Of a DNA stretch of 64,000 nucleotides, positions 31,201-34,200 are shown piece by piece. Positions within the stretch are counted from its first letter, which is position 1. Every line of letters begins with the position of its first letter. The DNA is taken from the NCBI RefSeq assembly GCF_032854445.1, contig NC_088303.1:13833501-13897500 (forward strand). The letters run 5' to 3'. Made by a program: the position numbers and the translations under genes. The notes beneath the pieces were generated by a model. That model had not been told where the DNA came from, made no database searches, and was given only the letters and a program-made list of their open reading frames with translations. The stretch comes from Liolophura sinensis (taxonomy: Eukaryota > Mollusca > Polyplacophora > Chitonida > Chitonidae).

Positions 31201-34200
31201 CCACCTGCTGGTTGCTGGCAGACCGGATAGGAATCTCAATATGTAACAGTATCTTGAGTTCACCTTGACAGTAGGGATTCTGTGGGTTGAAGTTGATGGG
31301 AAACTCATGAGACACAGACTGGTACGGTGGAAGCCTAGCTCCAAACCCCAGGGCTGGGAATAACTTGTCACTGTTAACATAAAGGAAAGGCAACTCAAAA
31401 GTAAATATCAACATTTTCACCAATAAATGCTAACACTTCAAAGTATGTTTTTGTACAGAATTATATGCCAGCAACCTAAAGTTTTTTTACCACACACTGT
31501 ATTAAAGTTTTGAGCCCGATGGAATTATGAGGCAATGGGAAAGTAATCAACTGTAAACACTATCTCATTTTCATTTGTTCTGATAACAAATTTTTGACAG
31601 ACATACCTGTACATGATATGTATTACATGTGTATTGATTGTACAGTAACTTGGGAGTAGTACATTTAGGCCTATGGAAAGGAACACTTAAGGCTTCACCC
31701 ACAGAGTGTATAGCCTGCATGTACTCATTAGGGACCTGGGAGAGGTACATGTAAGTCAAGACACACTTACGCATCATAGTCCTGACAAACTTCACCCACA
31801 GAGTGTATAGCCTGCATATACTCATTAGGGACCTGGGAGAGGTACATGTAAGTCAAGACACACTTACGTATCATAGTCCTGACAGACTTCACCCACAGAG
31901 TGTATAGCCTGCATATACTCATTAGGGACCTGGGAGTGGTACATGTAAGTCAAGACACACTTACGCATCATAGTTCTGACAGACTTCACCCACAGAGTGT
32001 ATAGCCTGCATATACTGATTAGTGACCTGGGAGTGGTACATGTAGGTCAGGACACACTTATGTATCATAGTTCTGACAAACTTCACCCACAGAGTGTATA
32101 GCCTGCATATACTGACTAGTGACCTGGGAGTGGTACATGTAGGTCAGGACACACTTATGTATCATAGTCCTGACAGACTTCACCCACAGAGTGTATAGCC
32201 TGTATGTACTCATTAGTAGCCTGGGAGTGGTACATGTACGTCAGGACACACTGATGTATCATAGTCCTGACAGACTTCACCCACTGAACATATAGCCTGC
32301 ATATACTCATTAGTGGCCTGGGAGAGGTACATGTAAATCAGGGCACATGTAAATCAGGGCACACTTACCTATCATAGTCCTGACAGACTTCACCCACAGA
32401 GTGTATAGCCTGTATGTACTCATTAGTAGCCTGGGAGTGGTACATGTAAATCAGGGCACACTTATGTATCATAGTCCTGACAGATTTCACCCACTGAACG
32501 TATAGCCTGCATATACTCATTAGTGGCCTGGGAGAGGTACATGTAAATCAGGGCACATGTAAATCAGGGCACACTTACCTATCATAGTTCTGACAGACTT
32601 CACCCACAGAGTGTATAGCCTGTATGTACTCATTAGTAGCCTGGGAGTGGTACATGTACGTCAGGACACACTGATGTATCATAGTCCTGACAGACTTCAC
32701 CCACTGAACGTATAGTCTGCATATACTGATTAGTGACCTGGGAGTGGTACATGTAGGTCAGGACACACTTATGTATCATAGTCCTGACAGACTTCACCCA
32801 CAGAGTGTATAGCCTGTATGTACTCATTAGTAGCCTGGGAGTGGTACATGTAAATCAGGGCACACTTATGTATCATAGTCCTGACAGACTTCACCCACTG
32901 AACGTATAGCCTGCATATACTCATTAGTGGCCTGGGAGAGGTACATGTAAATCAGGGCACATGTAAATCAGGGCACACTTACCTATCATAGTTCTGACAG
33001 ACTTCACCCACAGAGTGTATAGCCTGTATGTACTCATTAGTAGCCTGGGAGTGGTACATGTTGGTCAGGACACACTTATGTATCATAGTCCTGACAGACT
33101 TCACCCACTGAACGTATAGCCTGCATATACTCATTAGTGGCCTGGGAGAGGTACATGTAAATCAGGGCACACTTACCTATCATAGTTCTGACAGACTTCA
33201 CCCACAGAGTGTATAGCCTGTATGTACTCATTAGTAGCCTGGGAGTGGTACATGTAAATCAGGGCACACTTACGTATCATAGTCCTGACAGACTTCACCC
33301 ACTGAACGTATAGCCTGCATGTACTCATTAGGCTGGTAGGGACTGATGTAATGGAGTGATGTGGGCTGCTGCGGATTCCCATTGGATGCTGTGAAGTCTA
33401 TACCCACCTGGAAACAACAACAACAAAGGAGTGATTCTAGCTATTGGTTGGTAACATGGAATACAAATGACCTGGTAACATTAAATATATATAGCTAGAT
33501 GAAATATCCTGGAAAAAATGGTAAAACTATAACAGAATACTTAATGAATCAGAAATAATCAAAATATCAAAGAATGAATGATTATGGCTTAATGTTACTT
33601 GCGCAATATTGTAGCCATATTAGTGGCTTAATGCTACTTGGACAATATTGCACCCACACTTAGGGCTTAATGCTACTTAGGCAATATTGCAGCCATATTT
33701 ATGGCTTAAGGCTACTTGGGGAATATTGCAGCCATATTTATGGCTTAAGGCTACTTGGTTAATATTGCAGCCATATTGTGGTTTTAAATAATTATTGCAT
33801 TAACTCAGCCTTGGTTTATGAAAAAAATTAATGAAAATAGAAACTAATTCCAAGATAAGCTTTGGAGATCATCGTAAGGATAAACTGATCAGTCTACATT
33901 TATAACTACATGTACATAATTTAATAAAATGCATCAAGACCTATATGTAGAAAAGCTTTATGATCAAGACAGAATTTAACAGACCTGATATAATTGAGTC
34001 AATATAAGCCACCCAATGCTATAGTCCGCTGATCATAGAGAGACAAAGAGCAAGTTGTGAACATCATGAACAGGTTAACTGATAAAACCATTTACACATT
34101 TATTTCTTACTTACTGTGAAGTTGATTTGCATTCCACCCATGACAAACTCCAGGAAAGAATGTTCTTTTGTTATCTGTTGGAATCCAGATAAAAAACAAA

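Follow-up and report, generated by a model that had tools for sequence, protein, structure and literature searches.

A mirage-like minisatellite of exon-edge copies in intron 10 of a chiton copine gene

Canestro, in 2002, reportedly worked on the amphioxus arrays called mirages, and Turri, in 1995, is said to have described the human IFI6 (6-16) gene as having a minisatellite that supplies several splice donors. In the portions of the amphioxus accounts available to us, mirages are minisatellite-like tandem duplications over exon-intron boundaries, present in the globin genes BflGb6 and BflGb9 and in Adh3, TnC and PGBD5; they show length and even somatic instability, and Adh3 data together with globin RT-PCR indicate that regular splicing is seemingly undisturbed (PMC3087553, PMC3902484). 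In humans, introns can arise from tandem repeats located at exon-intron boundaries, according to the available part of another report (PMC2812944), and the accessible text of a Conus gene-structure paper deals with microsatellites in introns, not with exon-edge arrays (PMC3862624). We found no mirage in a mollusc in the literature searched, and as far as that literature shows the array described here is a mirage in a new phylum. This array lies in intron 10 of a copine gene in Liolophura sinensis, a chiton. We consider it highly probable that it is a mirage produced by tandem duplication of an exon edge, that it is neutral, and that it is most likely removed whole with the intron.

The copine gene and the anatomy of its intron 10 array

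The window, the whole stretch of 64,000 nucleotides that was analysed (C9 13833501-13897500), carries the copine gene on its minus strand and comes from a genome of 609 Mb in 632 contigs, represented by one haploid assembly. The available text of the assembly paper gives HiFi reads with a mean length of 8.3 kb at 14x and the original species name Liolophura japonica (PMC11068029), since corrected to L. sinensis (PMC12441733). We counted 14 copine exons between about 41056 and 25163, 13 of which were placed by script and the first by its open frame and donor only. The best protein match, P0001 ('copine-4-like isoform X2 [Liolophura sinensis]'), is 100% identical over the whole query, and its designation as isoform X2 implies that other isoforms exist. 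In this one protein examined the exon 10-11 junction is normal. The encoded protein contains a Pfam Copine domain (PF07002, 2e-87) and C2 domains, and plant copine BONZAI 1 is its top match, by sequence, among solved structures. The first exon also holds a coding minisatellite of 24- and 33-nt units (40586-40983) that specifies a PGYP-rich N-terminus, and isoform X2 starts downstream of it.

Intron 10 is 1903 nt long, and 1581 nt of it consist of an array that starts directly behind exon 10 (Table 1). The last 62 nt of exon 10 (33274-33335) correspond to unit 0. The full units measure 97 nt in 12 of 15 cases and 113 nt in the other three, which contain a 16-nt internal duplication. Each comprises an intron piece of 35 nt (51 nt in the three long units), with a donor site that is either GT or mutated and the acceptor-like CTCCCAG, and a 62-nt exon-like piece; CTCCCAG precedes all 15 copies. 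TRF, run with a reporting threshold of 50, returned three large rows for the array, with periods of 97, 194 and 404 and scores of 1051, 2300 and 2452. A preliminary description had read the unit as the end of a copine exon joined to intron, with acceptor-like, exon and donor parts, and had placed fifteen extra copies behind the true exon; both points agree with our alignment, which adds a truncated sixteenth copy that we excluded from the unit statistics. The exon piece of 62 nt given there requires amendment. Homology to exon 10 spans 58-59 of the 62 nt, beginning at CTAATGAG (58 nt) or, in copies 14 and 15, at CCTAATGAG (59 nt), and the first 3-4 nt (GCTA, GCCA, GTCA or GTC) belong to the duplication junction rather than to exon 10.

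Table 1. Positions of the exon-edge arrays, their copies and the flanking copine exons. Positions are those of the window unless a locus is named.
Feature	Position	Strand	Remarks
Copine exon 10	33274..33407	-	134 nt, enters phase 0; own donor TAC/GTAAGT; junction as in P0001
Copine exon 11	31264..31370	-	True acceptor ...GTTAACAG
Minisatellite of exon-edge copies	31693..33273	-	15 full units and one truncated
Copy 1	33177..33238	-	Donor AG/GTAAGT, intact
Copy 2	33080..33141	-	Donor AC/ATAAGT, lost
Copy 3	32983..33044	-	Donor AG/GTAAGT, intact
Copy 4	32870..32931	-	Donor AC/ATAAGT, lost
Copy 5	32773..32834	-	Donor AC/ATAAGT, lost
Copy 6	32676..32737	-	Donor AC/ATCAGT, lost
Copy 7	32579..32640	-	Donor AG/GTAAGT, intact
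Copy 8	32466..32527	-	Donor AC/ATAAGT, lost
Copy 9	32369..32430	-	Donor AG/GTAAGT, intact
Copy 10	32256..32317	-	Donor AC/ATCAGT, lost
Copy 11	32159..32220	-	Donor AC/ATAAGT, lost
Copy 12	32062..32123	-	Donor AC/ATAAGT, lost
Copy 13	31965..32026	-	Donor GC/GTAAGT, intact
Copy 14	31868..31929	-	Donor AC/GTAAGT, intact
Copy 15	31771..31832	-	Donor GC/GTAAGT, intact
Copy 16	31693..31735	-	Truncated after 43 nt of exon part, without donor; array end
Second exon-edge array of the same gene	24209..25206	-	Units of about 88 nt; from unit alignment
Copine-3-like array	L005 6501-7115 (C9:33212700-33222499)		42-nt array; last 12 nt of exon 5 + GTTAGT

The array was probably founded by tandem duplication of a segment with one end at CCTAATGAG, within exon 10, and the other at CTCCCAGGTC, which lies some 35 nt inside intron 10. 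Such a duplication would have put intron sequence, the present acceptor-like CTCCCAG, ahead of each exon copy, and growth would have followed by unequal exchange, mostly in two-unit steps. When the 16-nt duplication is collapsed, copies 1, 3 and 7, each taken with the following intron piece, are identical, as are copies 5 and 11. Unit differences at even lags of 2, 4, 6 and 8 were 6.2, 7.0, 5.9 and 8.0, while at odd lags of 1, 3, 5 and 7 they were 10.0, 11.6, 11.8 and 11.1; the smaller differences at even lags point to expansion by two-unit blocks. The exon pieces nearest to exon 10 are those of copies 2 and 4 (57/62), and the furthest is that of copy 12 (50/62). We infer the breakpoints, the mode of growth and the inertness of the array in splicing; the similarities between units fit expansion by two-unit blocks, probably with ongoing exchange of sequence between the array and exon 10.

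Assembly of tandem arrays is always risky, and ours was assessed from the assembly, which raises the question of whether the animal really carries only one copy or a few. However, HiFi reads with the mean length of 8.3 kb given in the consulted part of the assembly paper are able to span 1.6 kb (PMC11068029), the units differ from one another as a mosaic, and numerous similar arrays are present at other sites. Assembly error is an unlikely source of the array, and a genome with only one or few copies is barely credible.

Loss of donors and strength of the splice signals

GT is retained at the donors of seven of the 15 full copies (1, 3, 7, 9, 13, 14 and 15) and is replaced by AT in the remaining eight (2, 4, 5, 6, 8, 10, 11 and 12), with ATCAG in copies 6 and 10, so that the mosaic of seven GT and eight AT or ATCAG donors reported earlier was counted correctly. 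For column diversity the exon 10 row was excluded and the 16-nt duplication collapsed in the three units that have it; the donor G column then ranked second in variability among 97, in agreement with the preliminary description, in which the donor stood out. The final base of exon 10 is C, which makes the exon's donor a CpG (ACGTAAG), and 8/8 AT donors are the G>A product of this CpG. AT is found in 8 of the 11 copies ending in C and in none of the four ending in G (Fisher P = 0.026, although copies are non-independent). Variation is present at all four CpG columns of the exon 10 row, versus 25/97 columns overall (P = 0.004 with columns treated as independent). The CpG observed/expected ratio, 0.66 in the window and 0.57 in a 200-kb sample of the same chromosome, falls to 0.25 in the gene. 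Three of the four combinations of donor and last exon base are present, which means that one mutation spread by turnover suffices.

In our model the donors would decay neutrally, with CpG deamination of ACGTAAG to ACATAAG turning GT into AT, and a single change of this kind could spread through turnover of the array. Given a CpG site, a CpG-depleted gene and the possible spread of one G>A change, the losses need no selection. The preliminary description had instead raised selection, by which copy donors were disabled because they harm splicing. Selection would also predict a donor column that is second most variable of 97, and GT is gone in 8/15 copies. But every loss is a G>A change at the CpG, the strongest donors are kept, one of them (copy 1) nearest to exon 10, and an array in a copine-3-like gene that lacks a donor CpG has kept GTTAGT in 13 of 14 motif matches. 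As CpG decay and turnover explain the losses, we have abandoned the selective claim, which we regard as very unlikely; the cause of donor loss looks mutational rather than selective. Our verdict is that ordinary mutation explains the most striking feature of the array.

Four of the remaining donors are strong. Scored with a donor frequency table, the donor of exon 10 reached 6.22 and those of copies 1, 3, 7 and 9 scored 10.96, which exceeds all 12 real donors of the copine gene that were scored (4.3-10.06). Pyrimidine content is 0.65-0.76 in the copy acceptors and 0.59-0.82 in the real acceptors, while T content is lower in the copies (0.18-0.41 vs 0.35-0.76). The gaps between copies, 35 or 51 nt, are small against animal intron sizes, and it is doubtful that two adjacent copies would be included together. 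Strong donors in copies 1, 3, 7 and 9 nevertheless leave room for decoy use, and judging by the sequence the array may give rise to aberrant splicing. One form of this would be for some transcripts to splice from an array donor to exon 11, much as in human IFI6 (6-16), where the available portion of the report has two downstream repeat units serving as donors (PMC4526556). Exon 10 would then be prolonged and end at an in-frame TAA, yielding a truncated protein or a decayed mRNA. Four copies with near-perfect donors, stronger than exon 10's own, speak for such an outcome. It is nonetheless unlikely, as P0001 shows the normal junction, the prolonged exon 10 stops at once, and amphioxus mirages, in the text consulted, go with regular splicing (PMC3087553). 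We favour the reading that the whole array most likely leaves with intron 10 and that the protein is made from the normal exon 10-11 junction.

A further reading, which we regard as quite improbable, has the array serving as a reservoir of decoy donors and poison mini-exons that tunes the output of full-length copine. Since almost any use of the array breaks or shifts the reading frame, copy number and the GT/AT state of the donors would then set the amount of full-length copine, and both would vary from one individual to the next with growth or shrinkage of the array. The array is weak evidence for a new splicing mechanism.

Reading frame and coding constraint

A prolonged exon 10 meets TAA immediately, in the reading ACG TAA at its own donor. 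Addition of one copy shifts the frame, and the first stop is the 129th codon from the exon 10 start, in exon 12, for all 15 copies. Adding two copies gave a stop in 105/105 combinations and adding three gave one in 455/455. The latter result rules out restoration of the frame by three copies, as had been supposed from the unit length. The lengths 62 and 134 are congruent modulo three, and replacement of exon 10 by a single copy is open in 15/15 cases; this exchange removes DFTASNG, which we take to be the MIDAS motif, together with everything else in the first part of exon 10. Since prolongation and added copies run into stops and replacement removes DFTASNG, nearly every unusual use of the copies would be destructive.

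Exonic and intronic parts of the units are equally diverse (0.096 vs 0.097). In the homologous exon part we counted eight distinct nonsynonymous and four synonymous changes, where 79% nonsynonymous is expected (P = 0.29), and none of 14 changes creates a stop, which has a chance probability of 0.38. For the 11 distinct copies the pairwise pN/pS is 0.37, with pairs sharing the same few changes; taken alone, without regard to that sharing, this value hints at constraint. There is no clear coding constraint on the copies, and coding selection was rejected on the 8:4 changes and the equal exon and intron divergence, with the pairwise pN/pS on the other side.

These data also bear on whether the copies are cassette or mutually exclusive mini-exons, single copies taking the place of exon 10 to produce real isoforms. 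The exchange keeps the frame and is open in every copy, and the pairwise ratio of 0.37 would fit. Yet the exchange loses the DFTASNG stretch and its neighbours, the distinct changes give no sign of coding constraint, and a lack of stops is expected by chance at 0.38. As for mutual exclusivity, the phase fits, but only the last 58-59 of the 134 nt of exon 10 are copied. Such isoforms are therefore highly improbable, and a neutral array spliced out with intron 10 accounts better for the copies.

Other exon-edge arrays and comparison with known systems

Three further copine genes were found in the genome (C9:33.2 Mb, C7:51.7 Mb and C7:40.1 Mb), with more distant matches at C10:21.36 Mb and C9:10.30 Mb, and the exon boundary after ...TATGAYAS is common to the three. 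When the exon 10 tail of each of these genes was searched against its own locus (L003, L026, L027), none recurred in the following intron, the best further match being 13 nt. On this result we rejected a family-wide intron 10 feature of copines. The exon 10 tail of the window gene, searched with blast, has three 13-nt matches inside another array in L004.

A second donor mirage was found at exon 5 of the copine-3-like gene at C9:33.2 Mb. Scanning beyond the true exon with an 18-nt motif and up to five mismatches, we obtained 14 matches, of which 13 keep GTTAGT, with no donor CpG; the fourteenth lies in a rearranged stretch and is without GTTAGT. The window gene itself has another exon-edge array (Table 1), whose unit 0 holds the final 43 nt of the coding sequence, stop codon included. 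Identity to unit 0 ranges from 61/87 to 72/88 in six further units, with shuffled scores far lower; an exact-word comparison of the last exon against the window gave only the self match. Separately, a 44-nt array at 28879-29075 reaches to within 8 nt of exon 13, immediately upstream of the acceptor, and its units carry an acceptor-like TTATGCAG.

Arrays of at least 2.5 copies and units of at least 20 nt cover 10.0% of a 200-kb sample of C9 (27 arrays in 20 pieces of 10 kb, L006-L025, spread along the chromosome) and 10.8% of the window (15 arrays). Eight of the 20 pieces have no array, and one is 66% array. With arrays making up about 10% of the sampled chromosome, the capture of some exon edges is expected and unsurprising. 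A scan of the myosin-head family (84 matches, with 65 of 213 candidates scored), inspected by eye at a threshold below which short exon pieces would fall, gave no cluster of at least three repeats of one region. Two myosin-head exons of the same family region lie about 1 kb apart at C1:26642195-26643386 and are perhaps alternative exons.

Two mirages in chiton copine genes suggest that such arrays are not confined to cephalochordates. They form a natural pair, one array with a CpG donor that is half lost and one without the CpG that keeps its donor in 13 of 14 motif matches. They also offer a clear setting for studying why many strong donors next to the true one are passed over in splicing, and how new introns might originate from repeats at exon edges.

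Like the amphioxus mirages, the chiton array is a tandem minisatellite over an authentic exon-intron boundary that starts at the true exon, many but not all of its units keep AG/GT (7/15 donors, and CTCCCAG in 15/15), and its units show concerted evolution or turnover. It differs in belonging to a mollusc and not a cephalochordate, in its two-unit higher-order pattern and CpG-linked donor loss, and in having 15 full copies compared with the 6 and 3 units that the available amphioxus text gives for two BflGb6 haplotypes. As in IFI6 (6-16), splice donors are available in repeat units that lie downstream of an exon; the accessible part of that report has the downstream donors in use (PMC4526556), whereas those of the chiton are candidate donors and the chiton units also carry an acceptor-like site. 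The array shares with intron gain by tandem genomic duplication, as presented in the portions consulted (PMC4974935, PMC3087553), a duplicated sequence with AG/GT signals, but it has produced no new intron, its gaps of 35-51 nt lying within an existing one. The hTERT intron 6 VNTR, with 38-bp repeats that alter splicing, is likewise an intronic minisatellite; according to the part of its description available it works through RNA pairing, at a distance of more than 1 kb from the junctions (PMC3948165), whereas the chiton copies have the same sense as the exon.
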